Positions 1-18,226 of a stretch of 35,489 nt of DNA are shown here, piece after piece. The stretch lies in contig JAODMI010000093.1 in NCBI GenBank assembly GCA_025464755.1, forward strand, positions 1-35,489, written 5' to 3'. A program made the translations under genes and the position numbers. The DNA comes from Homoserinimonas sp. GTDB taxonomy: Bacteria > Actinomycetota > Actinomycetes > Actinomycetales > Microbacteriaceae. The notes below the pieces were generated by a model. The model had not been told where the DNA came from and made no database searches. It saw nothing but the letters and a program-made list of their open reading frames with translations. Numbering within the stretch: the stretch's first letter is position 1; each line of letters opens with the position of its first letter.

Positions 1-2718
1 CGCCCCGTCACCGGTACCGGCAACCGCGCCCTCAAGTCGCTGAGCGACATGCTCAAAGGCAAGCAGGGGCGTTTCCGCCAGAACCTCCTCGGCAAGCGCG
101 TCGACTACTCGGGCCGTTCGGTCATCATCGTTGGTCCCCAGCTGAAGCTTCACCAGTGTGGTCTGCCTAAGCAGATGGCTCTGGAACTCTTCAAGCCGTT
201 CGTGATCAAGCGTCTGATTGACCTCAGCCACGCTCAGAACATCAAGAGCGCCAAGCGCATGGTCGAGCGCAGCCGCCCCCAGGTTTGGGACGTGCTGGAG
301 GAGATCATCCGCGAGCGCCCAGTTCTCCTGAACCGCGCACCAACCCTTCACCGCTTGGGCATCCAGGCCTTCGAGCCTCAGCTCGTGGAAGGTAAGGCCA
401 TCCAGCTTCACCCGCTCGTCTGTGCAGCGTTCAACGCTGACTTCGACGGTGACCAGATGGCTGTCCACCTGCCCCTGTCGGTTGAGGCTCAGGCCGAGGC
501 GCGCATCCTGATGCTCGCATCGAACAACATTCTGAAGCCGTCTGACGGACGACCGGTCACCCTGCCAACACAGGACATGATCATCGGCCTGCACCACCTG
601 ACCACCCTCAAGGAGGGGGTTGTCGGTGAAGGTCGTGCGTTCGCCTCTGTCGCAGAAGCAATCCTGGCGTTCGACCAGCACTCGCTGGACTTGAACGCTA
701 AGGTGCGTATCCGCCTCGATGACCTTCACTTCGCCGACGGTGCAGCCCCCGAGGGCTTCGTCTCTGGTGAAACCTTCCTGCTGAACACGACACTCGGCCG
801 TGCGCTCTTCAATGAGACGCTGCCTGCGGACTACCCGTACATTGAGGCCGTCGCCGACAAGGGCCAGCTCTCGTCGATCGTCAACGACCTTGCCGAGCGG
901 TACCCGAAGGTTGACGTTGCTGCAGCGCTTGACCGCATCAAGGACGCCGGTTTCCACTGGGCAACGCGCTCTGGTGTGACTGTTGCTCTGTCGGATGTTC
1001 TCACACCGCCGAATAAGCGGGAGATCATCCTCGGATACGAGAAGCAGGCCGCCAAGGTGCAGAGCCAGTTCGAGAAGGGCCTCACGACCGACGCCGAGCG
1101 TCGTCAGGAGCTCATCGAGATCTGGAACAAGGCAACAGCTGAAGTCGCCAAGGCGATGGAAGACAACATGCCGGAAGACAACACGATCAACCGCATGGTC
1201 ACCTCCGGTGCCCGCGGTAACTGGATGCAGGTTCGCCAGATCGCCGGTATGCGTGGGCTTGTCTCGAACCCCAAGGGTGAGATTATTCCCCGCCCGATTA
1301 TCTCGAGCTACCGTGAAGGTCTTTCGGTCGCCGAGTACTTCATCGCAACTCACGGTGCTCGTAAGGGACTGGCTGACACGGCACTTCGTACCGCTGACTC
1401 CGGTTACCTCACGCGTCGTCTTGTCGATGTTTCGCAGGATGTCATCATCCGCGAGGACGACTGCGGCACTTCACGTGGTCTCGACCTGCTGGTTGCGACT
1501 CCGGATGCCAATGGCGTGCTCGTTCGCGACCCCAACGTCGAGAACTCGCTCTACGCCCGCAGCCTTGCTGAGGACGCAGTCGATGACAAGGGAACCGTTG
1601 TAGCCAAGGCTGGCGACGACGTCGGAGACGTCCTGATTCAGGACCTCATCGACGCTGGCGTCACGCACGCCAAGGTGCGTTCAGTCCTCACTTGTGAGTC
1701 CGCTGTCGGTGTGTGTGCTGTCTGCTACGGTCGCTCACTTGCCACCGGAAAGCTCGTCGACATCGGTGAGGCCGTCGGTATCATCGCGGCCCAGTCGATC
1801 GGTGAGCCCGGTACGCAGCTGACGATGCGTACCTTCCACACCGGTGGTGTCGCCTCTGCTGATGACATCACACAGGGTCTGCCCCGCGTCACCGAGCTGT
1901 TCGAGGCTCGTACCCCGAAGGGTGCGTCCCCGATCGCGGAGGCCGCAGGAAAGATCACCATCGAAGACACGGATCGCAGCCGCAAGCTGATCCTGACCCC
2001 CGACAACGGTGACGAGCCCATTGCCTACCCCGTGCTCAAACGTGCAACCCTCCTCGTAGAGGATGGACAGCATGTTGAGCTGGGCCAGCAGCTGCATGTT
2101 GGCGCCATCGACCCGAAGGAAGTTCTTCGCGTACGCGGTGTCCGTGCGGTGCAGATTCACCTGGTAAGCGGTGTGCAGGGCGTGTACCGCTCGCAGGGTG
2201 TGCCGATTCACGACAAGCACATTGAGGTCATCGTTCGCCAGATGCTCCGCAAGGTCACCGTGGTTGACCACGGCGACACCGGGCTTCTGCCCGGTGAGCT
2301 GGTCGACCGCCTCCGTTACAACGATCTGAACCGCACTGCGCTGACCGAAGGTCGCAAGACCGCTTCGGCTCGCCAGGAAGTCATGGGAATCACCAAGGCA
2401 TCACTTGCGACCGAGTCGTGGTTGTCGGCCGCATCGTTCCAGGAGACCACACGCGTTTTGACGCAGGCGGCCATGGAAGGCGCATCCGACCCGCTGATGG
2501 GGTTGAAGGAAAACGTCATCATCGGAAAGCTGATCCCGGCCGGTACGGGGCTTCCCCGGTACCGCAACGTGTCGGTCGAAGCGACCGAAGAGGCCAAGGC
2601 TGAGCGCTACCCGAACCGCATCTTCACAGATGAGTCGGTGTTCAACGAGTCGGACCTCAGCTTCGTCGATTTCGACAGCTTCAGTTCGGATGACTACCAG
2701 CCCGGTACGTATAACTAA
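1..2718 (+). CDS. rpoC: DNA-directed RNA polymerase subunit beta' (3' part; 5' end outside window)
   Basis: Frame open from base 1; contains [14 protein letters not shown] catalytic motif, [16 protein letters not shown] trigger-loop region and the CxxxxxxCxxCYG zinc motif. Confidence 0.98.
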
Positions 2719-2925: not shown

Positions 2926-4593
2926 GTGTCATCTCTGACAGAGATCCTCATCATCCGTGGAGCGATGCCCATCACCGCCATGGACAACCTTGTCGACGGC
3001 TGGAACGATGACGAAGCATCCATCAAAAAACTTGTTGACCAAGGGTTCATCAGCGCGCTCGACTTTGCGTCAGCGAAGGCCGCTCAGCAGGGAGTCCCCT
3101 TTGTTGAGCTGACCGAGTATCCAGTTGACCGTGCCGCCGTCAGCCTGGTACCTGCAGCCATCTGCCGTCGGCACGAGGTTTTACCGATTGCGGCCATCGG
3201 GAACACCTTGACCCTGGCCGTCGTCGACCCTGGCAACGTGTTCGCGGTCGACGATGTGCGCGCGGCGGTACGGATGCAGGTCACCCTGGTGGTTGCAGAA
3301 CGCAAAGACCTGCTGGCAGCAATCGACCGCTACCACCGAGCCGATGGTGAGCTTAGCTCCCTGACGTCGGTGCTGGAAGAGGAGAGCACCAGCCGGGAGC
3401 TTACGGTTTCCGAGACAGAACCCGGACTCGACGATGCGCCCATTGTTCGGTTCGTGAACCTGCTCATCAGCCAGGGCATCCAAGACAAAGCATCCGACAT
3501 CCATATCGAACCGGCGCAGCATGACATGGGCGTGCGATATCGCATCGACGGCGTTTTGCACGAAATGCAGCGCGCTCCGAAGTCCATCCAAAACGGTGTC
3601 ATCTCGCGGCTGAAAATCATGAGCGATATCGACATTGCCGAGCGGCGCAAGCCGCAGGATGGGCGACTTTCGGTCACGCACGGCGGTCGTCAGATCGACC
3701 TCCGTGTGGCGACGCTTCCCACTGTTTGGGGCGAGAAGATTGTCATGCGAATTCTTGACAACTCGAATACCGCGCTGAGCCTCAGTGATCTGAACATGCT
3801 CGACCGCAACCTTGAGATCTACCGCAAGTCGTTCACCAAGTCGAACGGCATGATTTTGGTGACCGGACCGACAGGTTCCGGCAAGTCGACGACGCTCTAC
3901 ACAACACTGCACGCGGTGTCGCGCCCTGAGGTTAACGTCATCACCATCGAAGATCCGGTGGAGTACCGGATGGCCGGCATCAACCAGGTGCAGGTGAACC
4001 CCAAGGCGGGCCTCACCTTTGCCAGTGCTCTGCGCTCGATTCTGCGTTCCGACCCGGATGTGGTGTTGATTGGTGAGATAAGGGATCAGGAGACGGCGCA
4101 GATCGCGATTGAGGCATCGCTCACCGGTCACCTCGTGCTCTCAACTCTTCACACCAACAGTGCTCCCGCCGCGATCGTTCGTTTGACTGAGATGAATATA
4201 GAACCATTCCTGGTGGGCTCGGCGCTCGACAGTGTCGTGGCTCAGCGACTTGCGCGCCGATTATGTGAGCGTTGCAAAGACCCTTACCAGGGCACGGCGG
4301 AAAGTTTGGCGCAGCTCGGCTTCTTCATCGATCCCACACAGCCCGCCCCGACATTGTTCCGGCCCATCGGGTGCATGCATTGCTCGAGCACGGGTTACCG
4401 TGGACGTATTGCCCTGCACGAGGTCATGGCGGTTACTGAAGAGGTCGAGAAGCTGGCTGTCGCCCGGGCCTCGAGCATGGAAATTACCAAAGTCGCCGTT
4501 CAGCAGGGCATGTCAACGCTGCGTCAAGACGGCTGGAATAAGGCGTTGCTCGGATACACGGCCGTTGAAGAAATATTGAGAGTGGTGGCGTAA
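2926..4593 (+). CDS. pilB: Type IV pilus assembly ATPase PilB / GspE family
   Basis: N-terminal MshEN-like region, Walker A GPTGSGKSTTLY, Asp box/Walker B (RSDPDVVLIGEIRD), tetracysteine CERC...CMHC; GTG start. Confidence 0.93.
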   Translation: MSSLTEILIIRGAMPITAMDNLVDGWNDDEASIKKLVDQGFISALDFASAKAAQQGVPFVELTEYPVDRAAVSLVPAAICRRHEVLPIAAIGNTLTLAVVDPGNVFAVDDVRAAVRMQVTLVVAERKDLLAAIDRYHRADGELSSLTSVLEEESTSRELTVSETEPGLDDAPIVRFVNLLISQGIQDKASDIHIEPAQHDMGVRYRIDGVLHEMQRAPKSIQNGVISRLKIMSDIDIAERRKPQDGRLSVTHGGRQIDLRVATLPTVWGEKIVMRILDNSNTALSLSDLNMLDRNLEIYRKSFTKSNGMILVTGPTGSGKSTTLYTTLHAVSRPEVNVITIEDPVEYRMAGINQVQVNPKAGLTFASALRSILRSDPDVVLIGEIRDQETAQIAIEASLTGHLVLSTLHTNSAPAAIVRLTEMNIEPFLVGSALDSVVAQRLARRLCERCKDPYQGTAESLAQLGFFIDPTQPAPTLFRPIGCMHCSSTGYRGRIALHEVMAVTEEVEKLAVARASSMEITKVAVQQGMSTLRQDGWNKALLGYTAVEEILRVVA

Positions 4594-4596
4594 CCG

Positions 4597-6102
4597 ATGA
4601 GTGACCCCGGGTTTGACGATCGCTTCACTGGCAGTGACGCGTTCAGCGGTGGGCGGCGGACCGCTTTGCCAGCAGATTCTGCTGGTTGGCCGGTCCCGGA
4701 CCCGGAAACCGTCGCACCCGCCTTGCTGCCTACGAATGCGCCTCACTCGGCCGCGTATAGGGAAGAGCCCGAACAGTTCTACCCGTCGGTGCCCTTCGAC
4801 CGTATTGCTGCGCCGTCTATCAACGTTCCCATCATTGGATCGCCCATGCAGGGGGCGCACAATTTTCCGCCACCCCAAGCCGCCCCGACCAGCATGCCGG
4901 CGCCGTCATCGGCATACGTGTCTCGACGCGATCCTAATCTGAACCCCGACGCCGACCTGGAGTGGGCTCTGGAAAAGGTTTTGATGCGCAGCGGCTCCGA
5001 TCTGCACGTCACGGTGAACGCACCGCCCATGATCCGCATCGACGGCGCCCTCGCCCCTCTCGACGGTGCGCCCAGCTGGAGCCAGGAGAAGGTCACGGCG
5101 GCCCTGCACAGCATTCTCACGCCGGCGCAGAAGGCGACATTCGAGTCGGAGCTGGAATTCGATTTCGCGTATACGATGTCGGCCAACGCGCGTTTTCGCG
5201 TCAACTTCTACCAGCAGCGCAACAGTATCGGTGCAGCATTCCGACTCATCCCCACGGAAATCAAGGCCCTCAGCGAGCTGGGTGTTCCTGAGTCGATCGC
5301 GGCCTTCGCCGGGCTCGCACGTGGACTGGTGCTGGTGACAGGACCTACTGGTTCTGGTAAGTCGACTACCCTGGCCGGCATTATCGACCTGGTCAACCGC
5401 ACCCGGGCTGACCACATTATGACTGTGGAAGACCCGATCGAGTTTCTGCACTCCAATCACAAGTCGCTGGTGAATCAGCGCGAAGTCGGGCATGACACAC
5501 ACAGCTTCGCCGCTGCTCTCAAGCACGTCCTGCGCCAGGACCCTGATGTGATTCTGGTGGGGGAGCTGCGCGACCTGGAAACAATTTCTGTTGCCCTTAC
5601 CGCGGCAGAAACCGGTCACCTCGTTTTCGCCACCCTCCACACCCAAGATGCTCCGCAGACCATCGACCGCATCATCGACGTCTATCCGCCACACCAGCAG
5701 GGCCAGGTGCGCGCTCAGCTCGCTGCCACCTTGCAGGGCGTGGTCTGCCAAACCCTGGTTAAGCGCGCGTCCGGTCAGGGGCGGGTTGTTGCCACTGAGG
5801 TGCTGGTGGGTACGCACGCCGTGGCCAACCTCATTCGCGAGGGCAAGACCTACCAAGTGCATTCAGCGATGCAAGCCGGACGGAGTCTGGGGATGCACAC
5901 GCTTGACCAGCATCTGGCGGAACTGGTCAATAGTGCTCAGGTGACGTATGAGGCGGCAGCGGAGAAAGCGCACGACACGGAAGTGTTGAAACGTTTAGTT
6001 ACCCGCACGGAGATGCCGGCGGTCCAGTCCGGTTCTATGTCTGGCGGATTCGACTTCGGTGACAGCTTCTCTCCGGGCAACTATCCCGACAGCAACTACT
6101 GA
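4597..6102 (+). CDS. pilT: PilT-type twitching motility ATPase with long Pro-rich N-terminal extension
   Basis: Walker A GPTGSGKSTTLAGIID, RQDPDVILVGELRDLETI, HLVFATLHTQDAPQTIDRIIDVYPPHQQ typical of PilT. Confidence 0.93.
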   Translation: MSDPGFDDRFTGSDAFSGGRRTALPADSAGWPVPDPETVAPALLPTNAPHSAAYREEPEQFYPSVPFDRIAAPSINVPIIGSPMQGAHNFPPPQAAPTSMPAPSSAYVSRRDPNLNPDADLEWALEKVLMRSGSDLHVTVNAPPMIRIDGALAPLDGAPSWSQEKVTAALHSILTPAQKATFESELEFDFAYTMSANARFRVNFYQQRNSIGAAFRLIPTEIKALSELGVPESIAAFAGLARGLVLVTGPTGSGKSTTLAGIIDLVNRTRADHIMTVEDPIEFLHSNHKSLVNQREVGHDTHSFAAALKHVLRQDPDVILVGELRDLETISVALTAAETGHLVFATLHTQDAPQTIDRIIDVYPPHQQGQVRAQLAATLQGVVCQTLVKRASGQGRVVATEVLVGTHAVANLIREGKTYQVHSAMQAGRSLGMHTLDQHLAELVNSAQVTYEAAAEKAHDTEVLKRLVTRTEMPAVQSGSMSGGFDFGDSFSPGNYPDSNY

Positions 6103-7331
6103 TGGCCTCGACTAAGGAGTTCGCTTACAAGGGTCGCGATACACGAGGCAAGGTCGTTAAAGGTCGGCTGGATGCTGCATCGGAGGCGGCGGTGACGATG
6201 AAGCTGCGCACGATGGGGGTGTCGCCCCTGGCTATCTCCGAGGCGGGGTTGGGTACCGGCCTCAATATGGACATCAACCTTCCCGGGTTCGAGAAGGGCG
6301 TAGCCCTCAAAGATTTGGCAGTGATGGCTCGCCAAATGGCGACGATGATTTCATCGGGTTTGTCGCTGATCCGAACCCTCACAATTCTGGCGGAACAGAC
6401 AGAGAACACGACCCTGGCGAAGACACTCGACCTGGTAAGAACGGACGTCGAGGCTGGGTTCTCCCTTTCAGGCGCTCTCGGCCGCCACAGTCACATCTTC
6501 CCCCCGCTGATGATCAACCTTGTACGCGCAGGAGAGTCCGGAGGCTTCCTCGAAGGAACAATGGGTTCGATCGCCGAAAGTTATGAGGGCGAAGTCAAAC
6601 TGCGGTCAACGATCAAGTCCGCGTTGACCTATCCGATCGCTGTGCTTGCAATGGCGGTTCTCGCGGTCATTGCCATGCTCACCTTCATCGTTCCTGTTTT
6701 CGAGAAAATGTTCACCGACCTCGGCGGGGCGCTGCCCCTTCCGACGCAGATCCTTGTGGTGCTCTCTCGGCAGATGGTGTGGATTGCGCCCGCCCTTGTT
6801 GTCGTGGCCGTCGCGTTTGCTGTCTGGTGGAAGGCAAACAAGAACAAGGAGAACGTGAGAGCCTTCGTCGACCCACTGAAACTTAAAATCCCGGTATTCG
6901 GCAACTTGTTCGCCAAGGTAGCCATCGCTAGATTCTCGCGTAACTTCGCGACAATGATGGGTGCCGGGGTGCCCATCTTGCAGTCGCTTAGCATTGTCGG
7001 CGAGACATCGGGGAATTATGTCATAGAGCGCTCGCTCAAGAAGGTGGCGGAGTCGGTGCGTGCAGGCAAATCGATTGCTGCGCCACTGGCACTTGAACCG
7101 GTCTTCCCTTCGATGGTCACGCAAATGATTGCCGTGGGTGAAGACGCCGGCGCGCTAGAGACGATGCTCAACAAAATCGCCGACTTCTACGACCAGGAAG
7201 TGCAGGCAACCGCCGGACAGCTCACCGCCCTGATCGAACCGCTCATGATTGCCTTCATCGGTGTCGTGATCGGCGGGATGGTGGTCGCGATGTATATGCC
7301 TCTGTTCTCAATATTCGAGCAAGTCCAATAG
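6102..7331 (+). CDS. pilC: Type II secretion / type IV pilus inner-membrane platform protein PilC (GspF family)
   Basis: 409 aa with duplicated GspF domain (MARQMATMISSGLSLIRTL... / FSRNFATMMGAGVPILQSLSIV), EDAGALETML; TGATG coupling with pilT. Confidence 0.93.
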   Translation: MASTKEFAYKGRDTRGKVVKGRLDAASEAAVTMKLRTMGVSPLAISEAGLGTGLNMDINLPGFEKGVALKDLAVMARQMATMISSGLSLIRTLTILAEQTENTTLAKTLDLVRTDVEAGFSLSGALGRHSHIFPPLMINLVRAGESGGFLEGTMGSIAESYEGEVKLRSTIKSALTYPIAVLAMAVLAVIAMLTFIVPVFEKMFTDLGGALPLPTQILVVLSRQMVWIAPALVVVAVAFAVWWKANKNKENVRAFVDPLKLKIPVFGNLFAKVAIARFSRNFATMMGAGVPILQSLSIVGETSGNYVIERSLKKVAESVRAGKSIAAPLALEPVFPSMVTQMIAVGEDAGALETMLNKIADFYDQEVQATAGQLTALIEPLMIAFIGVVIGGMVVAMYMPLFSIFEQVQ

Positions 7332-7346
7332 CTTTCCTCACCTTGT

Positions 7347-7365
7347 CACCCTCGTTTTGGGGGTG
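7347..7365 (+). terminator. Hairpin CACCC-tcgttttgg-GGGTG downstream of pilC
   Basis: Inverted repeat in the pilC-pilA intergenic region. Confidence 0.45.
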
Positions 7366-7375
7366 TGCTGCAGAG

Positions 7376-7400
7376 GTGATCCACCCCCCTCGGGGGTCAC
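7376..7400. promoter_or_regulatory. Second hairpin upstream of pilA
   Basis: GTGA-tcca-CCCCC-ctc-GGGGG-TCAC inverted repeat. Confidence 0.4.
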
Positions 7401-7494
7401 GGGCACGCAGATCACAGGCGACAATTATTGCGGGGGCAATTCCGTTGGGGGCCACCTGTCCGCAACTTCTCATCACTTGACAGGAAACATCATC

Positions 7495-7935
7495 ATGAGC
7501 ACATCCATTAGCGCCGCACTGGCGAACAAGCACGCCGAGATTAAGGCTAACGACAAGGGCTTTACCCTCATCGAGCTTCTTGTCGTTGTCCTGATCCTCG
7601 GCGTCCTCGCCGCTATTGCCATCCCAGTCTTCGTCGGACAGCAGGAGAAGGCGCGTGCATCTGCAGTGGAAGCTGAGCTTGCCACGGCTAAGACCGCGTG
7701 GGTTAGCTACCTGGTGGAAAAGCCTGACGCTGCTACTGTCCCGCAAGCCGGTCCCGACCTGGACACATTGCTGAGCTTCGGGTGGCCCGCACCGGACGTG
7801 GCAACCGTCACAGGCACGCCTGCGACGTTCTGCATCCACATCACCAACTTGAATCAAGAAGGGCACTCGGGCAGCGTCGGAGCGAAAACGAAGGTTCGGG
7901 TAGTGAAGTCAACCAGCCAGGTGGAGTGCGTCTAA
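7495..7935 (+). CDS. Major type IV prepilin (PilA-like)
   Basis: Prepilin motif NDKG^FTLIELLVVVLILGVLAAIAIPVF; Cys pair near C-terminus; ATG at 7495 preferred over the ORF-track start at 7357. Confidence 0.9.
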   Translation: MSTSISAALANKHAEIKANDKGFTLIELLVVVLILGVLAAIAIPVFVGQQEKARASAVEAELATAKTAWVSYLVEKPDAATVPQAGPDLDTLLSFGWPAPDVATVTGTPATFCIHITNLNQEGHSGSVGAKTKVRVVKSTSQVECV

Positions 7936-7952
7936 GTAACGCCTAGCCCAGA

Positions 7953-7980
7953 GGGTGTCGACCCGTCGCGGTCGGCACCC
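7953..7980 (+). terminator. Hairpin after pilA
   Basis: GGGTGTCGAC-ccgtcgcg-GTCGGCACCC, 10-bp stem with one G-T wobble, 17 bp after pilA stop. Confidence 0.6.
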
Positions 7981-8030
7981 TAGGGATACGTCACGCGATC
8001 ACACAGCATCCGAAAGGAAAGAGGTCGGGA

Positions 8031-8435
8031 ATGACTTCCCTAAGCCGCCTCGAAAGTGATGAATTTGGCGTGGGAATGGTAGAGATTGTCGTCTCAATGC
8101 TCGTTCTCGCGGTCTTGGCGATGTCGTTCCTTCCGCTTCTGATTCAGGGCATCAAAGTGTCCGCATCGAACGCCACCCTTGTCACTGCCACCCGGATAGT
8201 GCACGACGAGATGGAGCAAGTTCGTACACTCACCACGTGCGCATCGGTGACCCCGACACCCACGCCATCTCCCACCGTCACAGATCCGCGTGGTGTGCAG
8301 CTCGCGGTCAAGCGCACCGTCGGGCCGTGCCCGGTCTCCTTCCCCGGGACGAGAAAAGTGACCGTCGAAGTCAGCCGCGGCATTCCACCCAAGGTCCTCG
8401 CCAGTGCCACGACCCTTGTCTTTGTGGAGAGCTAG
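8031..8435 (+). CDS. Minor prepilin (PilV/GspI-like)
   Basis: Short leader plus hydrophobic helix ESDEFG^VGMVEIVVSMLVLAVLAMSFLPLLIQG with Glu at +5; upstream GGAAAGAGG RBS. Confidence 0.75.
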   Translation: MTSLSRLESDEFGVGMVEIVVSMLVLAVLAMSFLPLLIQGIKVSASNATLVTATRIVHDEMEQVRTLTTCASVTPTPTPSPTVTDPRGVQLAVKRTVGPCPVSFPGTRKVTVEVSRGIPPKVLASATTLVFVES

Positions 8436-8440
8436 CCGCT

Positions 8441-9019
8441 ATGGACGTGCGCACCCGAAGCGAGACCAGCTCTGCAGAGCAGGGCTTCACCCTTATCGAG
8501 CTGTTGGTCTACAGCCTGCTGCTGATGGTTGTTCTCGCCATCGTTGGCAGCGTTCTCATTAGCTCCATGCGCGTGGAGAGAACAGTCCGGCGCGTGACCC
8601 AGACATCGAGCGCAGGCCAACTTGCTGTCGCCTCCGTCGAGACAGGAATCCGAAACTCATCCGGCTTCTTTTTGACGGCGGTGGGCGCAGATCAGCTCTT
8701 GCTGGCTCGCACGGCGCGCGGTACAGCCGCGGTGGTGTGGGGTTGTGAGGCGTGGTACTACTCAGCGAGCGCAGGAACAATTCACTACAAACACTCCACC
8801 GCCATTATCCCGACGCCGAACGCAAGCCAACTGAACCAATGGCTTCTCCTGGTCGACGGCGTCACACCCAATAGCGGCAGCACAATATTCCTTGAAGTAG
8901 TTTCCGGCAAAAATCTTGACATCGTCTTCAATGTCTCGGCCGATGACAACCCAAATATTGCCATAGCGAGCTCTGCAGTGAGTAGAGCCGGCCCAGGGGG
9001 AGCACCGTTATGCTACTGA
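8441..9019 (+). CDS. Minor prepilin (PilW/GspJ-like)
   Basis: SAEQG^FTLIELLVYSLLLMVVLAIVGSVLISSM; ATG at 8441 chosen over upstream start 8237, which overlaps the previous gene. Confidence 0.8.
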   Translation: MDVRTRSETSSAEQGFTLIELLVYSLLLMVVLAIVGSVLISSMRVERTVRRVTQTSSAGQLAVASVETGIRNSSGFFLTAVGADQLLLARTARGTAAVVWGCEAWYYSASAGTIHYKHSTAIIPTPNASQLNQWLLLVDGVTPNSGSTIFLEVVSGKNLDIVFNVSADDNPNIAIASSAVSRAGPGGAPLCY

Positions 9020-10563
9020 AGAACCCGCAGCTCAACCGCGCAAACGAAGAAGGTTCAGCGCTTGTAGCCGTGATCGCAGTGATGCTGGTGGGGTTGCTGA
9101 TCACTACCGTCATCATGACGTCCGTTGTCGGCGCGGTCGGCTACACCTCGGTGGCTCGCGCCGGTGTGCAGTCGCAAGCCTCTGCAGACGCTGGCATCGC
9201 CGCCGCGCGAGTGGGTCTAATGACGGGGACGTGTGCGGCGAAGTCGGGCCTCTACGCAAGTGCTGCAGGCGAAGTGCCACAGTACCGTGCGGTCATTTAC
9301 CAGTCGACGGCAGGAGCGTGGGTGCAGGGTTGCCCAGCTTCCTCCGCCGTCCCGGTAAAAATTGTCGCCGATGGCTCAGCCCAATCGATCGGGGTTGCCG
9401 GTAGATCCGCCAATGACGGCAGCCGTGTCGAAGCAATTTTTGCCGCGGCACCGCTTGTCACCACGATCACCCCGTCCGGGCCTGCCATCTACTCCTATTC
9501 CTCCACCGGCTTCGGTGGATCCGGCACCTTATCCAGTGTCAGCGGATCTGTTCCCAGCGTGATGGTGCGGCACGGGGATGTGGTGTGCAACGGCTCCAGC
9601 AGCGGCGCGGACAACTTTGTTGTCGCTGACGGTACGTTGAGTGTGGACGGATCATGCAAGGTGCGCGGCAGCATTTGGTCATCCGGCAAGACGACACTGA
9701 CTGGTTCAGCGGATATCGGCGGAAACGTCGTGTCCTCGGGCCTGTCGATGGAAGGCAGCGCGAAAGTCGGGGGAAGCGCGTGGTCCATCGGGCAGGCAGA
9801 CATGCCAGGCAGCAGCCATATCGTGGGAACCCTGAGCGCTACAAAACTTGTGATGTCAGGCAGCGCGAAAATTAGTGGCAACGTGTGGTCACCGACGGCT
9901 CCCACACAGTCGGGCTCCGCTGCAATCTTGGGGCAGTACCTCACCGGAACAGGCCCTCAGCCCATCTCGGCTCCCACGGTGCCTGATTGGGTTGACTTCG
10001 CCTACAAGGCGTCCGACTGGACAGGTTTCACAGAGAAAGTGATTTCCGGCAGCTGCGATGTTGCAGTCCTGCAGGCCGCCATCAGCACCTTAGCCGGCGC
10101 TAAAGGAGTCATTGATGCACGCGCCTGCACCGGCGGGCTCAGTATCGGCGGCAGCAGCGATGTTGCCTTCACCAATGACCTCGTCATCGTCGCAAATAAG
10201 TTCGATTTTGGCGGCAGCGGCAGCCTCACCTCCACAGCAAATGCAAGGTTATGGTTGATCACCCCCGATGACAGCGACGACGATCTCCCTACCTGCCCGG
10301 TGGGTGCAGACTTCAGTGTCGGCGGGAGCTTTAGCCTCGGCTCAACAGTTTCGGCCATGATTTATACGCCGTGTTCTGTGAGCATGGCCTCATCCACGCA
10401 ATGGAGGGGACAGGTGTTCGCCGGCAAAACCTCGATGGGCGGATCCTCGAAGCTGGCGTACGTTGCGATGGGGTTACCCGGTGTCGACTTGAGTGATGGA
10501 GTGCTGGCCTCCACTGGCGGGGCAGAGCGACCACTGCAATCCATGCGCGACCTAGTTGGCTGA
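9010..10563 (+). CDS. PilX-like pilus-associated protein with beta-solenoid/bactofilin-like repeats
   Basis: N-terminal NEEGSALVAVIAVMLVGLLITTVIM helix; repeated GSAxIxGxVWSxG units in the C-terminal half; overlaps the previous gene by 10 bp. Confidence 0.7.
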   Translation: MLLKNPQLNRANEEGSALVAVIAVMLVGLLITTVIMTSVVGAVGYTSVARAGVQSQASADAGIAAARVGLMTGTCAAKSGLYASAAGEVPQYRAVIYQSTAGAWVQGCPASSAVPVKIVADGSAQSIGVAGRSANDGSRVEAIFAAAPLVTTITPSGPAIYSYSSTGFGGSGTLSSVSGSVPSVMVRHGDVVCNGSSSGADNFVVADGTLSVDGSCKVRGSIWSSGKTTLTGSADIGGNVVSSGLSMEGSAKVGGSAWSIGQADMPGSSHIVGTLSATKLVMSGSAKISGNVWSPTAPTQSGSAAILGQYLTGTGPQPISAPTVPDWVDFAYKASDWTGFTEKVISGSCDVAVLQAAISTLAGAKGVIDARACTGGLSIGGSSDVAFTNDLVIVANKFDFGGSGSLTSTANARLWLITPDDSDDDLPTCPVGADFSVGGSFSLGSTVSAMIYTPCSVSMASSTQWRGQVFAGKTSMGGSSKLAYVAMGLPGVDLSDGVLASTGGAERPLQSMRDLVG

Positions 10564-11399
10564 TGTTTACTAGTCCCGTTGTGATCGCTGCAGTCTCCGG
10601 CGCAGTCGTGTTCGGCCTCCTCATCGGTTCGTTCCTCAACGTCGTCGTCTGGCGATTGCCTCGCGGCCAATCGCTGAACCATCCGGGCAGCCGCTGCCCC
10701 GGCTGCGGCCACGCCATCCGGTGGTACGACAACATTCCGGTGCTTTCATGGCTCATCCTGCACGGTAAGTGCCGCGACTGTGCATCGCGGATCTCAGTGA
10801 GGTACCCTGCCGTTGAATTGGCGACTGCGCTGTGCTTCGGAACAGTCGCGTGGTGGTGGATTGCAAAAATCTCGATCAGCGGCATGGGCTTGGTCAGCGG
10901 GATTTTCGCGCTGATCGCCTTCCTTTATCTGGCCGCAATCTCGATCGCGCTCGCTCTGATTGACCTCGGCACCCACAAGCTGCCGAACAAGATCGTTCTG
11001 CCGGCTTACCTTGTCGGTGGCGCTCTGCTGGCGGCGTCCAGCATCCTGCAGTCAGATTTCGCTGCCCTTGCTCGTGCTGGCACCGGCATGGCCGCCATGT
11101 TCCTTGCCTACTTTTTGATGGCGGTCGCCTACCCCGGTGGTATGGGGTTCGGTGACGTGAAACTTGCTGGCGTACTGGGTCTGTATCTGGCGTGGCTGGG
11201 TTGGGGCGAATTGATCGTCGGCACCTTCGCCGCATTCGTACTCGGCGGCATCTACGCGGCCGTCTTGCTCGTGCTGCGTAAGGCGAACCGTAAAAGCGGC
11301 ATCCCTTTCGGACCATGGATGCTCGCCGGGGCCTGGGTCGGGGTATTTTTAGGAGGCAGCATTTGGCGCGGCTACCTGAAATTGGTCGGGGTGGGGTAG
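10563..11399 (+). CDS. pilD: Prepilin peptidase (A24 family, PilD)
   Basis: GSFLNVVVWRLPRG, CPGCGH...CRDC zinc motif, GxGD motif (GMGFGDVKL); TGATG coupling. Confidence 0.93.
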   Translation: MFTSPVVIAAVSGAVVFGLLIGSFLNVVVWRLPRGQSLNHPGSRCPGCGHAIRWYDNIPVLSWLILHGKCRDCASRISVRYPAVELATALCFGTVAWWWIAKISISGMGLVSGIFALIAFLYLAAISIALALIDLGTHKLPNKIVLPAYLVGGALLAASSILQSDFAALARAGTGMAAMFLAYFLMAVAYPGGMGFGDVKLAGVLGLYLAWLGWGELIVGTFAAFVLGGIYAAVLLVLRKANRKSGIPFGPWMLAGAWVGVFLGGSIWRGYLKLVGVG

Positions 11400-11433
11400 T
11401 GGCAGCGCCGCATATACCGGGGAAGGGCACATT

Positions 11434-12483
11434 GTGGCCAAAAGAGTAGTGGGCGTGGATATTGGCAATTCGTGGATTCGCGCCGTCGAGGTGGCGGATG
11501 CTGCGGGCCCACGCCCGACGGTCGAGCGCTACCACCGGGTGCCGCTCGCCGACGATGCCGCACGCAGCGGTGACGTACTCGATGTGCACACTGTTGCCGA
11601 CGCGCTGAAACGTCTCTGGGCTGACGCTGGGTTCAAAAGCAAAGATGTGGCGCTTGGGATGGGTAACCAACGGGTATTGGCGCGGGATCTCACCGTGCCC
11701 AAGATGAGTCTCAAACACATTCGCGAGTCCCTGCCCTTCCAAGTGCAGGAGATGTTGCCTGTCCCGGTCGCTGAAGCTCTGCTAGATTTCTACCCCATCT
11801 CCGAAGGGGTGGGCGAAAACGGGAGTCCAGTCATCAACGGCTTACTTGTCGCCGCTGTGAAGGAAGCGGTGATGGCCAACGTCAGCGCTGTCCAAGCGGC
11901 CGGGTTGAACCCCGTTGACGTCGATTTGATCCCGTTCGCGCTCAGCCGCGTGCACCTGCGTGGCAAAGACGTACGCGGCACCGTTGCCATGATTGATGTC
12001 GGCTCGACAACGACGAACGTCGTCATCACCATCAATGGAGTTCCCCAATTCGTGCGCATCATCCCGGCAGGGGGTGACGACCTGGGCAGGGCCCTAACAT
12101 CGCATCTGGGTGTCAGTGTGGCAGAGGCGGAACACCTCAAACGCACTATCGGTCTGCGAACGGCCGGTGTTCCCGCCGAGTTCCGGCCCGCAGTCGAAGT
12201 GATGTACCAGGCAACGGGTCAGCTGCTTAACGCTTTGCGCAATACGTTGAGCTTCTTCGTCAGCTCACACCCGAACGACCCCATCGTCGCCGTGCTACTC
12301 ACCGGTGGCGGCTCGAAACTTCCGGGTTTCGTCGCGGCACTGGGCGAGCTGATCCGCGTGCCGGTTTCCCTCGATGACGGATTTGGCGGCATCCGCGTGT
12401 CACGCACCGCAGGCGCCTCGCACGATGTCGACCGCGACGGCATGACGCTTGCGCTTGGGCTTGCGCTGGGGAGCAAGGCATGA
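11434..12483 (+). CDS. pilM: Type IV pilus assembly protein PilM
   Basis: Actin-like fold motifs VVGVDIGNSWIRAVEV, MIDVGSTTTNVVI, VLLTGGGSKLPG; GTG start. Confidence 0.9.
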   Translation: MAKRVVGVDIGNSWIRAVEVADAAGPRPTVERYHRVPLADDAARSGDVLDVHTVADALKRLWADAGFKSKDVALGMGNQRVLARDLTVPKMSLKHIRESLPFQVQEMLPVPVAEALLDFYPISEGVGENGSPVINGLLVAAVKEAVMANVSAVQAAGLNPVDVDLIPFALSRVHLRGKDVRGTVAMIDVGSTTTNVVITINGVPQFVRIIPAGGDDLGRALTSHLGVSVAEAEHLKRTIGLRTAGVPAEFRPAVEVMYQATGQLLNALRNTLSFFVSSHPNDPIVAVLLTGGGSKLPGFVAALGELIRVPVSLDDGFGGIRVSRTAGASHDVDRDGMTLALGLALGSKA

Positions 12484-13160
12484 ACATCGGCCGACGTGAA
12501 CCTGCGATCGTCATTGGCGGTGTCCCCCGTATCGACTTTCTGCCGCCAGAGATCAAAGCGAAGAAGGAGGGTCGCCGCACTCGGCGTTATCTGACCGCGG
12601 CGGTGGGTTGTGTCGCGGTCTTGTGCCTTATCGCCTACGTGTGTGCCACGACGCTCGCCGCTGATGCGCAGTCGGACCTGGCGGATGCCCAACAACGAAG
12701 TCAAATCCTCCTCACTCAGCAAGGTGAATTTATTGAGGTGCGGGCAATCGCAAGCGAAGTAGCTACCGCCGGCGACGCTCTCAAGGTGGGATCAGCTACC
12801 GAGATTTTGTGGTTCCCCTACCTGCAACAAGTGCACTCGACTTTGCCCGCTGGCATGGCGGTCACCACCTTCGCGGTGGATTCGCAAAGCGCACTCGAGG
12901 CGACACCGCTGCCCAGCACTCTGTTGCAGGGGCCGCGCGTCGCCACCATCGGGCTCACCGCGACGAGTCCCGGCTACGCGGAGATCGAGGTGTGGCTGAC
13001 CAACCTGCGAAGCCTTACCGGCTTCGCAGATGCCACCGTCTCCTCAATAGCGTTGGAGGAAGGCACCTACGTCGCCATGGTGACTCTCAACGTCAATGCG
13101 GACGCATTCGAGCGACGTTTCTTCGAGGCGTCCGCTGCACCAACCGACACGGAGGAGTGA
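12480..13160 (+). CDS. pilN: PilN-like type IV pilus assembly protein
   Basis: IDFLPPEI motif followed by a single TM segment, position between PilM and PilO, ATGA overlap. Confidence 0.75.
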   Translation: MNIGRREPAIVIGGVPRIDFLPPEIKAKKEGRRTRRYLTAAVGCVAVLCLIAYVCATTLAADAQSDLADAQQRSQILLTQQGEFIEVRAIASEVATAGDALKVGSATEILWFPYLQQVHSTLPAGMAVTTFAVDSQSALEATPLPSTLLQGPRVATIGLTATSPGYAEIEVWLTNLRSLTGFADATVSSIALEEGTYVAMVTLNVNADAFERRFFEASAAPTDTEE

Positions 13161-13162
13161 TC

Positions 13163-13828
13163 ATGAACTCCAACAAAATCTGGACATTCGGCTCGATTGT
13201 TGCCATCGTCACACTCATCCTCGGAACATGGTTCCTGAGCGTATCGCCGCGACTGGCGGAGATGAGCACCGCACATGACTCTCGCCTGTCAGCGGACGCG
13301 CAAAACGCAGAACTTGAGAACGCGCTGGCAGCGCTCGAAGATCAGTACGACGAGATGGCTACACTCGAAAGCCAGCTCGCTGACGTGCGCATCGCTGTGC
13401 CAGATGACGCCGCGCTACCCGCTCTCATCGACCAGCTCAACCAGCGGGCGAACGCTAATGGGGTCGTCATAACCTCGATGACGGTCAGCGACGCGGAACC
13501 GTATGTGCCGGCGGCGGATGTTTCGTCGGACGCAGAGCTTTCAGCGGCATCAGCCAGCGTGACGGCGGACAACTTTCTCACGATGAACATTGGGCTGACC
13601 CTCAGCGGTGCCTATGGGCCCGTCATGCAGTTCATCGCTGACGTGCAGCAGGGAGAGCGCTTGTTCCTTGTGCACGACCTCGCCCTCACCGAAGGCACGA
13701 TGCAGGCGGACGCCCCAGTTGTTATCGTTGCCACCGGCCAGGTGTTCGTGCTGCTTGACGAGGCGACGGTGGCGGCCAATCGCACGGTGGCCCCACCGGT
13801 GGAGGCTGAGGCGCCGCCCGCTGAATAA
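13163..13828 (+). CDS. pilO: PilO-like type IV pilus assembly protein
   Basis: N-terminal TM, coiled coil, IAVPDDAALPALIDQLNQRANANGVVITSM typical of PilO; start at 13163. Confidence 0.75.
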   Translation: MNSNKIWTFGSIVAIVTLILGTWFLSVSPRLAEMSTAHDSRLSADAQNAELENALAALEDQYDEMATLESQLADVRIAVPDDAALPALIDQLNQRANANGVVITSMTVSDAEPYVPAADVSSDAELSAASASVTADNFLTMNIGLTLSGAYGPVMQFIADVQQGERLFLVHDLALTEGTMQADAPVVIVATGQVFVLLDEATVAANRTVAPPVEAEAPPAE

Positions 13829-14782: not shown

Positions 14783-17700
14783 TTATGTCACGACCGCGGT
14801 TAGTGCGAATGTCTTGTTCGGTGTTGCGCGATAATTCGATACCACCTGTGCACTGATCACGTTGAGACCTTCTGCGAGGGCCGAAGCAGGTACATCAATC
14901 GTGACCGCATTTGCGGGCGCCGTTGCCGTTGCCGTGCTTCGGGCGCTGATCGCGTACGTGTTGTGGCCAATTGGGCCGTCGGAGATATTCGACCGACCGA
15001 CTTCGACGCCGTTGACGTAGATGACGATCCCGTCATCAGCCCGCGTCGTCAAACGCACTCCACCGGCCGGCAGCTGGCCTGTCGGTATGGTGAACGAGTG
15101 ACGGAAGTACACAGCAAGAGGTTTTGGTGTCACCGTCGTCGTGATTTCGGTACCGAGCCCGGTGGTTCCCCAGCCGAGAACACTTGCACCGGTTGGCCAT
15201 ACTGTTGAGTTGAAGCCTGATGACGCCCATTCGGCTGCGGGTGCATCCGCCTGGATCAGGTATGACCAGGTCGAATCATTAGCGACGAGAAGCGTCCCGG
15301 ACGGGAGGCCAGCAGGGGGGTCAGCCGGTGGGTCGGCCGGCGCGGTCCCGTCCATCGATGCCTTGGCCGTCAGCTCGAAGCTGGCGCTCGGGGTGGTGCG
15401 GTAGTTCAGGTGAACCTCCGCCGCGATGACGTTGTTACCGTTTCTGAACGCCGACCCTGGAATGGTGATCGTCACAGGGTTGGAGACCGCACTACTTGCC
15501 GTGACGGCAGCATTTGCGTAGGTGCTGAAGCTGATCGCGCCTGCGGAGATGTTGCGCCGCGCTACTTCCACTCCGTTCACGTAGACAGCGATGCCATCGT
15601 CGGCTCGGGTCGTGAGGGTTACCGTTCCGAGCTTGCTCGCATCCGTCACTGCAACAGACCGCGAGTAGTAAGTGGCAACCGGCCTGGGCGAAGGCGCCGT
15701 CAGCGTGGTGCCGAGGTTGGCATGTCCAAAACCGATCGGTGCCTTCCCGGTGGACCAGGTACTGGAATCGAAGGCGACGGTGTTCCAGTCAGCGGGGGGT
15801 GCCGTGACAGCCTCACGGTAACGCCAATGCGATCCAGCTGCCACAAGTTCACCGGCCGGAGGCGGGGGATCGACCGGTGCGGTGATGCTGACAGATGTCG
15901 TGCTGGCAGAGAGGTTGCCTCCGGCGTCGGCTGCTCTGATGAAATACTTCGTCTCCGGAGTTGCCTCAGGCAAGGTGATCGTCCGTGCCGTCGTTGTCGC
16001 CACGACTCTGTCGTTTCGCAGCACCTGGTATTCGACTATGCCGGAGTCATCGGTTGAGCTTGCCCAGTTCAGCACTACGCCGGATGGAGATGAGCTTGCC
16101 GTCAACCGTGATGGGGAGGTCGGTGCGCTCGAGTCGCGGCGATCGAAGCGCACGAATCCGCCGGACCACTGCTTGAGGAAACCGGTCCTCACTGAAGCGG
16201 TGAAAGCGCCGCCGGTCCACAATTTTCCGGTGGAGTCGGTTATTTGTGCCCAGCTTCCCGCGCCGGCCCTGCTGCTGAGGATCGGGCTGAAGTCGGGAAG
16301 CGTCAAACCCGTCGCGTGGTCCCAGGCGCCAACGGACTCTATCTTGGTGGCGCTGGTCCAGGTAGTGCCAACATTGTTTATGTTGGTCCACTGTGTTGCG
16401 TTCTCGTACTGTGTGTTGTTGCAGTGGCAACCGCCGTAGATGGTCTGCCCGTCGGCAGAGATCGCCTGGAAGTCGCCGTTCGGGTTGCCTATATTGGTAC
16501 TGAGATTTGCGAACGTGTTGCGGTCGTAGCTGTACAGCTGATGCTGGGAGCCGCCGATCCACACTTTCGATCCGACCTCAAGTACAGCCTGTTGATAGCC
16601 CCGCCCACCTACTTCGGTTGCCAGGAGCATATTCCACGGCAGAGCTGTTCCATCGGACGTGCGGATGGCGGCGCCTTTGTTGGTGCGCGTCGTCTGCTTC
16701 GAGGTGTTGAAGAAACCGCCGAAGTACGTTTGATCGCCTTGCGCGGAAGCATCGACGGCCACGACGGTTCCATTGAATTCCGGGTTGAAGGCGGTATCGG
16801 GCTGCCCTGTTATTGCGTTGACTCGCGCGCCATTGCGCATGTATCGCTCGCGGGTGTCACCGTTCCAGGTGAAGTGAGTGAAAGTCCCGCCGATGTAAAG
16901 CCAACTGCCCTGCACATCAAGCCCCCGCACGGTGACGGCGCCACCACTTACACGGTTAACCATCTGGGTGCTAAATCCGGCGATCGTCGCCCCCGTAGTG
17001 GGGTGGAGTGCTACCAGGCTGGTTCGCGCCTCTCCGTTGACCTCGGTGAAGTACCCACCAGCGGCAATGTTGCCGTTCGGAAGCACGGTGAGGGCCTTGA
17101 CCTGGTTATTCAGTACGGGGCGGAACGATGTGATCAGTTCGCCGGTCGCGACGCTGAAGGCGGCCAGGTAAGGCTGTGCCACGCTACCCGTTCCTGTTGA
17201 TGTGCGCTGTGCAGAGGTGAAGTTGCCACCGACGTACATGACGCCGTGTGCTTCTGCAAACGCGGAGACCTCGTTGCTGCCTTCGATCGACTGTGAGCCG
17301 GCGCCGATTCCCGTAACGCCCCAAGTTGTGGGTTCTGCGAAGCTGTCGGCGAGAACTCGCTGCTCCACCTTGGGCGTACCCCCATCCGCTATGGCGGTGA
17401 AGATAGTGGATGAGATCAAGGTGGGGCGTAGAAAAACCTGCGTGAATGGGCGTGGGTTCCGGGCGGTTGCAGTGGGTGCCCAGATGTAGCTGGTGTCAGA
17501 AGCTGAACCGCGTGAGTCTCGACCGTATCCGAAACCGGCTACCCAGCCTTGTTGCGCGCCGTTTATGGTCTCCACTCGTGTGAGCAGGGTGCCCGAACCG
17601 AAGGAAGTGGTGGTTCCGCCGGTGCCGGTCAGGTCGCCGATAGTCCAGTTCGCCACCCGTTGGAGGTTGTTGAACTGCCACGTCCAATCCACTCGAGGTG

Positions 17701-18226
17701 AAGCGAAGGTGAAGCCGACCTCTTGCCAGGAGCTACCATCCTGAGTGAGCGCCCTCCTGAGGCGAATGCCATCGGCGAGGTCTCCGACCGAGCCGCCGTT
17801 GAGAAGCGCTTCGATCATGTTGGAGGAGAGCTGGCGCGGCTGGAACGCTGCCTGTCCAGTGGTGACCGCGCTGACCTGCGCCGGTGTGCCGCGGCCTTCA
17901 TTCGAGTTGGACCAATCCTCCCGTCCACGGCCGATGAGCACCCAGCCTCCGCCGTTTGTTTCCTGGTCACAGTAGAACCGCTCAGCGGCGCCCATGGCGG
18001 GTGTCAGTAGCCAGTACACGCCGCTCGGGGACGCAGCGTCGTTCTGCTTGATCTCCCAGCATGACGCGGCTGCAGTCAGCTCGGACAAACCGTCGGGGGC
18101 CGGGATCGGTGCAGCAGCCGCCTGCTGCGGCGGGGCGAGAATCACCCCGACGACAAGTGCGGTGACAAGGCCTACACCTATCCTTTGGGTGATTCTCGGG
18201 TTGACTGCGCTTCGGGTAAGCGACAT
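14783..18226 (-). CDS. Secreted multidomain protein: fibrinogen-like YCDxxxxGGGW domain, beta-propeller-like region, FN3, two tandem C-terminal domains
   Basis: Signal peptide (VGLVTALVVGVILAPPQQAAAAP), RFYCDQETNGGGWVLIGRG, delta-60-like repeats (GGxFTxxNGxxR...LxPxTG), FN3 segment APTSPSRLTASSSPSGVVLNWASSTDDSGIVEYQVLRND, repeated LTTRADDGIxxYVNGVEVxRxNIS. Confidence 0.85.
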   Translation of the reverse strand: MSLTRSAVNPRITQRIGVGLVTALVVGVILAPPQQAAAAPIPAPDGLSELTAAASCWEIKQNDAASPSGVYWLLTPAMGAAERFYCDQETNGGGWVLIGRGREDWSNSNEGRGTPAQVSAVTTGQAAFQPRQLSSNMIEALLNGGSVGDLADGIRLRRALTQDGSSWQEVGFTFASPRVDWTWQFNNLQRVANWTIGDLTGTGGTTTSFGSGTLLTRVETINGAQQGWVAGFGYGRDSRGSASDTSYIWAPTATARNPRPFTQVFLRPTLISSTIFTAIADGGTPKVEQRVLADSFAEPTTWGVTGIGAGSQSIEGSNEVSAFAEAHGVMYVGGNFTSAQRTSTGTGSVAQPYLAAFSVATGELITSFRPVLNNQVKALTVLPNGNIAAGGYFTEVNGEARTSLVALHPTTGATIAGFSTQMVNRVSGGAVTVRGLDVQGSWLYIGGTFTHFTWNGDTRERYMRNGARVNAITGQPDTAFNPEFNGTVVAVDASAQGDQTYFGGFFNTSKQTTRTNKGAAIRTSDGTALPWNMLLATEVGGRGYQQAVLEVGSKVWIGGSQHQLYSYDRNTFANLSTNIGNPNGDFQAISADGQTIYGGCHCNNTQYENATQWTNINNVGTTWTSATKIESVGAWDHATGLTLPDFSPILSSRAGAGSWAQITDSTGKLWTGGAFTASVRTGFLKQWSGGFVRFDRRDSSAPTSPSRLTASSSPSGVVLNWASSTDDSGIVEYQVLRNDRVVATTTARTITLPEATPETKYFIRAADAGGNLSASTTSVSITAPVDPPPPAGELVAAGSHWRYREAVTAPPADWNTVAFDSSTWSTGKAPIGFGHANLGTTLTAPSPRPVATYYSRSVAVTDASKLGTVTLTTRADDGIAVYVNGVEVARRNISAGAISFSTYANAAVTASSAVSNPVTITIPGSAFRNGNNVIAAEVHLNYRTTPSASFELTAKASMDGTAPADPPADPPAGLPSGTLLVANDSTWSYLIQADAPAAEWASSGFNSTVWPTGASVLGWGTTGLGTEITTTVTPKPLAVYFRHSFTIPTGQLPAGGVRLTTRADDGIVIYVNGVEVGRSNISDGPIGHNTYAISARSTATATAPANAVTIDVPASALAEGLNVISAQVVSNYRATPNKTFALTAVVT
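14786..15298 (-). repeat. Second copy of duplicated C-terminal protein domain
   Basis: GTLLVANDSTWSYL...VRLTTRADDGIVIYVNGVEVGRSNIS...VISAQVVSNYRATPNKTFALTA. Confidence 0.8.
15350..15853 (-). repeat. First copy of duplicated C-terminal protein domain
   Basis: GELVAAGSHWRYRE...VTLTTRADDGIAVYVNGVEVARRNIS...VIAAEVHLNYRTTPSASFELTA. Confidence 0.8.

Follow-up and report, generated by a model that had tools for sequence, protein, structure and literature searches.

Type IVa pili (T4aP) of monoderm bacteria have been described from Streptococcus sanguinis and Clostridium, in which PilB, PilT, PilC, PilD, PilM, PilN and PilO are encoded in a single cluster together with modular minor pilins and without PilP or PilQ (PMC6916266). 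The absence of a secretin is the rule in this group, and the systems that had been studied in Actinobacteria up to 2019 all belonged to the Tad type (PMC6916266). T4aP have been recorded genomically in Actinobacteria (PMC6668835). Type IV pili have been described in Rubrobacter (PMC8325347), and those of Actinoplanes missouriensis zoospores are cited there for adhesion to hydrophobic surfaces (Kimura 2019, cited in PMC8325347). Modular pilins, which display a functional module grafted onto a pilin module, form a further point of comparison; known modules include vWA and concanavalin-like lectin domains in S. sanguinis PilB and PilC as well as the carboxypeptidase-regulatory-like family PF13620 (PMC8179133).

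Given the genomic reports and the experimental system in Actinoplanes, the core of the locus analysed here is of a known kind. It shares its gene content, layout as a single cluster without PilP/PilQ, and modular minor pilins with the other monoderm T4aP, but differs in having V-W-X minor pilins with a predicted beta-solenoid PilX that lacks Glu5, and its modules are unlike those of S. sanguinis PilB and PilC. The Actinoplanes and Rubrobacter systems, compared by description, are likewise encoded by actinobacterial type IV pilus genes, whereas this locus belongs to Microbacteriaceae. Unlike the modular pilins described previously, whole V-W-X cassettes appear to be exchanged here, at one conserved site and within one bacterial group.

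The window, i.e., the whole stretch of 35,489 nucleotides that was analysed, derives from Homoserinimonas sp. (2.1 Mb genome in 192 contigs, 91% complete). Open reading frames and family checks support 11 co-directional genes in the order pilB-T-C-A-V-W-X-D-M-N-O (2926-13828, + strand; Table 1), in agreement with the order and coordinates given in a preliminary description of this DNA, and the gap of 207 bp between the rpoC stop and pilB upholds its placement of the locus immediately downstream of rpoC. Its portrayal of a compact operon with overlapping genes holds for four junctions (pilT/pilC, 1 nt; pilW/pilX, 10 nt; pilX/pilD, 1 nt; pilM/pilN, 4 nt), but not for the flanks of pilA, where larger gaps occur (163 nt on the 5' side and 95 nt on the 3' side, at 7936-8030, where a hairpin lies). 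The start of pilA is most likely ATG 7495 and not TTG 7357, as given by the mechanical ORF call, and the starts of pilW (ATG 8441) and pilO (ATG 13163) were also corrected. Scanning the region for sigma-70-like promoters yielded no site, below chance expectation, a result that says little about an actinobacterium.

Table 1. Features of the pilus locus and its upstream neighbour (positions refer to the window).
Feature	Position	Strand	Basis
rpoC, 3' part, upstream neighbour	49..2718	+	
pilB, extension ATPase, MshEN N-domain	2926..4593	+	Family match, motifs, nearest solved structures
pilT, retraction ATPase, ~120-aa low-complexity N-terminal extension	4597..6102	+	Family match, motifs, nearest solved structures
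pilC, platform protein	6102..7331	+	Family match
pilA, major pilin, GFTLIE processing site	7495..7935	+	Family match and start correction
Hairpin 3' of pilA, 12-bp stem	7952..7981	+	Fold computed; role inferred
pilV-like minor pilin, Glu5 present, cassette type V1	8031..8435	+	
pilW-like minor pilin, Glu5 present	8441..9019	+	
pilX-like putative tip pilin, without Glu5, pilin module and parallel beta-helix module, cassette type X0	9010..10563	+	Tip placement inferred
pilD, prepilin peptidase, tetra-Cys and both catalytic Asp motifs	10563..11399	+	
pilM, actin-like assembly protein	11434..12483	+	Family match
pilN-like alignment protein	12480..13160	+	Weak family match; position conserved
pilO-like alignment protein	13163..13828	+	Weak family match; position conserved

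A strong fold 3' of pilA was present in 68 of 71 related loci relative to mononucleotide shuffles, and the fold of the window hairpin reached a z of -2.3 against dinucleotide shuffles. The hairpin is probably a 3' stabiliser or attenuator and, through transcript stabilisation or termination, may increase PilA relative to the minor pilins. Beyond the operon, on the opposite strand and convergent with it, the region 14783-18226 encodes a secreted-looking protein of 1147 aa that had no Pfam match at 1e-5; its start reads as fibrinogen-type, followed by repeats, and it is a possible surface adhesin.

The components expected of a T4aP are encoded at the locus, namely PilB (T2SSE, 457 bits, plus an MshEN domain), PilC (T2SSF, 211 bits), PilD (Peptidase_A24 and A24_N), PilA with an N_methyl match and a class III signal, and a dedicated PilT (TIGR01420, 463 bits versus a cut-off of 319). 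The PilM-PilN-PilO alignment complex is also represented: PilM scored over its cut-off (TIGR01175, 173 versus 133 bits), PilN matched weakly (15.9 bits, under the cut-off), and PilO had a weak GspM match as its sole family match. Recognition of PilN and PilO relied mainly on position; in relatives, both gene position and BLAST show them to be conserved. The catalytic motifs of the motor proteins and peptidase are all preserved: PilT has Walker A and B, the His box and an AIRNLIRE-like motif, PilB has its tetra-Cys, and PilD has a tetra-Cys as well as the two Asp motifs. The solved structures nearest to PilB and PilT are those of Geobacter-type PilB and PilT. No secretin was found in the genome of the window, while the same search was positive in six control genomes. 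The PilY1 model had no match in any control genome, hence that search was uninformative. Because the motifs are intact and the genome holds no secretin, we assign the locus to the secretin-less T4aP and neither to type II secretion systems (T2SS) nor to relics; as secretin absence is the rule in monoderm T4aP, it does not argue against membership. At the level of sequence, this confirms the proposal of the preliminary description, namely a type IVa pilus that has no secretin and can be both extended and retracted, and the ATPases for both steps are intact. The hallmarks of a Tad/Flp system (TadA, TadB plus TadC and a short Flp pilin) were not found at the pilus locus, and two TadA-like ATPases are encoded elsewhere in the same genome (L118, G000:C12; L119, G000:C37), which therefore carries Tad-type pilus genes as well.

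The N-terminal extension of PilT (4597-4950) is proline-rich and of low complexity. In many relatives it may be longer still: the stretch between the stop of pilB and the core of PilT has a median of ~193 codons and reaches ~380, which is an upper bound on the extension as start codons are unfixed. In the MshEN domain of PilB (2926-3350), the Arg-Leu-Gly residues of the c-di-GMP motif known from MshE seem to be missing, as judged by eye.

The preliminary description had implied that such loci are rare. This does not hold, as PilT was detected over its cut-off in 147 of 300 sampled Microbacteriaceae genomes and actinobacterial T4aP had been reported before (PMC6668835, PMC8325347). Within the class, 81 of 395 genomes, spread over many families, had a PilM above the cut-off. 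Across 80 named loci (from Microbacteriaceae, Cellulomonadaceae, Sanguibacteraceae, Jonesiaceae, Demequinaceae and Rarobacteraceae), the order pilB-T-C-A-minor pilins-D-M-N-O is near-universal, and its conservation extends outside Microbacteriaceae to Cellulomonadaceae, Sanguibacteraceae, Demequinaceae and Rarobacteraceae. Exceptions are three loci that appear rearranged (L084, L106 and L112) and some that are truncated at contig ends. The fetched upstream flank included rpoC in 22 Microbacteriaceae loci, and in several of these it is separated from pilB by no more than a few hundred bases, which speaks for a locus position that is both old and fixed. In four Naasia loci (L058, L064, L069 and L073), another, divergent PilT-like gene precedes pilB (at ~5.8-8.6 kb; 53-59% identity).

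While the preliminary description correctly recorded three minor pilin genes, it named them merely as pilV-, pilW- and pilX-like, and their cassette proved to be the most informative part of the locus. Nearly every locus has three extra prepilins (V, W and X) between pilA and pilD, although the motif filter overlooked the middle prepilin in some loci. Matches of the window proteins to known families were limited: PilV matched TIGR02523 with 28 bits (under the cut-off), PilW matched N_methyl, and PilX (457-636 residues across loci) had weak bactofilin/DUF7305 matches only. A bactofilin identity for PilX was rejected (23.7 bits versus a curated cut-off of 27.9); the likeness comes from its beta-helix repeats. 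PilX lacks Glu at mature position 5 throughout (0/70 with Glu5), a trait that marks out the tip pseudopilin GspK, while PilV and PilW have Glu5, apart from rare exceptions that are one-residue cleavage-site offsets.

Sequence clustering yielded four PilX groups and six PilV groups, coupled into six types among 70 loci (X1V0, 28; X0V1, which includes the window, 25; X2V2, 7; X0V3, 5; X2V4, 3; X3V5, 2). The cassette types differ in their modules, for example a ricin-B lectin in 9/70 PilX, in a type other than the two modelled below, and weak bactofilin-like repeats in 6/70, and carboxypeptidase-regulatory-like (13/71), Big_9 (7/71) and cadherin-like (7/71) domains in PilV. These lectin and Ig-like domains occur in the cassettes of relatives and are absent from that of the window. 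In Rarobacter, one PilV (L116:13956-16436) is 818 residues long, with a C-terminus that looks discoidin (F5/8C)-like by eye after Ig-like repeats.

Comparison with backbone trees suggests that the tip genes are replaced in place as a block, that the motor and shaft are mostly vertically inherited, and that the target of the pilus is what evolution keeps changing. On a tree of 69 loci built from pilT+pilC+pilM, cassette type shifts at least 12 times; the pilB-T-C tree gives 17 shifts and the pilD-M tree 13, all counted on quick LG+G4 trees in which some deeper branches are open. Type labels are strongly clustered on the tree relative to shuffles; hence, exchange is recurrent but not constant. 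In the clearest case, the window groups with Salinibacterium L037 and L038 with 100% SH-aLRT on both the pilB-T-C and pilD-M trees; the backbone of this sister lineage is 74% identical to that of the window, and all three loci have rpoC upstream. Both Salinibacterium loci are nonetheless of type X1V0, and BLAST found no match in them to V, W or X of the window (X0V1), the PilX of which has its closest counterparts in different Salinibacterium loci (L049, L047 and L046; 41-43%). Although the window is a MAG-like contig, most cassette swaps are between isolates. From these comparisons, the V-W-X genes between pilA and pilD are predicted to form an exchangeable cassette, which is new here.

Structure prediction provided clues to the nature of the putative tip. 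The model of the window PilX (pLDDT 91.4) comprises a long pilin helix (5-63), a small beta domain (72-184), a parallel beta-helix of ~295 residues that extends to ~480, and a last strand (500-505). In Foldseek, ComZ of Thermus ranked first (E 5.6e-5) and tapirins second (E 0.003-0.007). An X1-type PilX, from L037, was modelled with its own alignment at moderate confidence (pLDDT 79.5) and also matched ComZ best, in all three chains (E ~1.5e-6); the two ComZ-matching PilX types belong to separate sequence clusters. ComZ of Thermus thermophilus (PDB 6qvi) has been described as a DNA-binding tip pilin that resembles GspK and into which a beta-solenoid is inserted (PMC6561018), and the predicted PilX structure has the same combination of a pilin module and a beta-solenoid module. 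The last strand of the window model would fit a ComZ-style insertion between the final two strands of the pilin sheet. However, global TM-scores against ComZ stay low (0.17-0.30), and a PilX sequence profile searched against the PDB gave ComZ as the best match at a non-significant E of 0.53, so the likeness is one of architecture and not of close superposition. ComZ differs further in that it comes from a diderm competence pilus, and the module of PilX is acidic, with a pI of 4.8 and a net charge of -7. The tapirins of Caldicellulosiruptor (PDB 4wa0, 6n2b) are likewise beta-helix surface proteins, but the PilX match covers their C-terminal domain only and, to our knowledge, tapirins are not known as pilins.

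We consider it probable that the locus encodes a retractable pilus whose tip receptor can be exchanged and which would serve mainly in surface attachment and retraction-driven movement. Based on family membership and intact motifs, PilD would cleave PilA, and PilB, PilC, PilM, PilN and PilO would assemble the fibre, which the intact retraction ATPase PilT would retract. PilV, PilW and PilX may prime and cap the fibre. PilX is the candidate for the tip, as it lacks Glu5, as in GspK, and its predicted structure has a bulky module after the pilin module. This module could act as a receptor for a surface, a glycan or DNA, such that retraction would draw in the cell or the ligand, and replacement of the V-W-X cassette in place would alter what the pilus binds. 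The lectin and Ig-like modules of alternative cassettes favour adhesion or twitching, as does the presence of TadA-like ATPases and comEC in every sampled genome, whether or not it encodes this pilus.

DNA capture is possible as a further role. The preliminary description named DNA uptake among the possible roles and proposed a search for comEA and comEC elsewhere in the genome, and a comEA-comEC-holA cluster is indeed present (L117:3925-7953, G000:C60). However, comEC occurred in 30/30 genomes with this PilT and in 30/30 without it, so that DNA uptake does not follow; being universal in the family sample (60/60), comEC was set aside as evidence. TadA-like ATPases were found in 61/61 genomes examined, and the idea that T4aP has replaced Tad was rejected on these grounds. 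The gene cluster and ComZ as the closest structure speak for DNA uptake, and also for a pilus serving primarily for competence, with PilX as a ComZ-like DNA receptor and PilT retraction feeding ComEA/ComEC. We regard such a primary role as unlikely, since the distribution of comEC and TadA-like ATPases does not follow this PilT, the PilX module is acidic, lectin and Ig-like swaps are not explained by a DNA receptor, and in Micrococcus luteus, where an actinobacterial pilus for transformation has been investigated, it is of the Tad/Flp kind (PMC6916266).

Tip variation could instead be driven by phages or antagonists that use the pilus as a receptor, and not by ligand choice. Block replacement of an exposed tip on a conserved motor would also be expected under receptor escape, but the ricin-B lectin is a recognisable ligand-binding module that points to a binding function, and the shaft protein PilA is not replaced as a block, which makes this explanation very improbable. 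It is scarcely credible that the locus is a T2SS-like secretion pseudopilus or degraded, the outcome that the preliminary description had set as its refutation: PilX is GspK-like and PilB scores barely higher with the PilB model than with the GspE model (613 versus 577 bits, both under cut-off), but PilT and PilM exceed theirs, reading frames and catalytic motifs are intact, the locus is conserved in several families, and the secretin GspD expected of a T2SS is absent from the genome. We know of no T2SS that includes a dedicated PilT.

The reading of a retractable pilus with a swappable tip can be extended, tentatively, to Micrococcales-type actinobacteria in general. These may possess one conserved pilus chassis on which ComZ/GspK-like tip cassettes (beta-solenoid, ricin-lectin or Ig-like) are traded at a fixed site, with some tips capturing DNA; this would represent a second, unrecognised organelle for DNA uptake or attachment beside Tad. 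A complete T4aP is a common and old possession of Microbacteriaceae and their relatives, in a phylum studied mainly for its Tad pili. Strains with similar motors and differing tip blocks provide a natural experiment on minor pilin function, and the role of the tip in binding specificity, motility or DNA uptake is directly addressable via these cassette differences.
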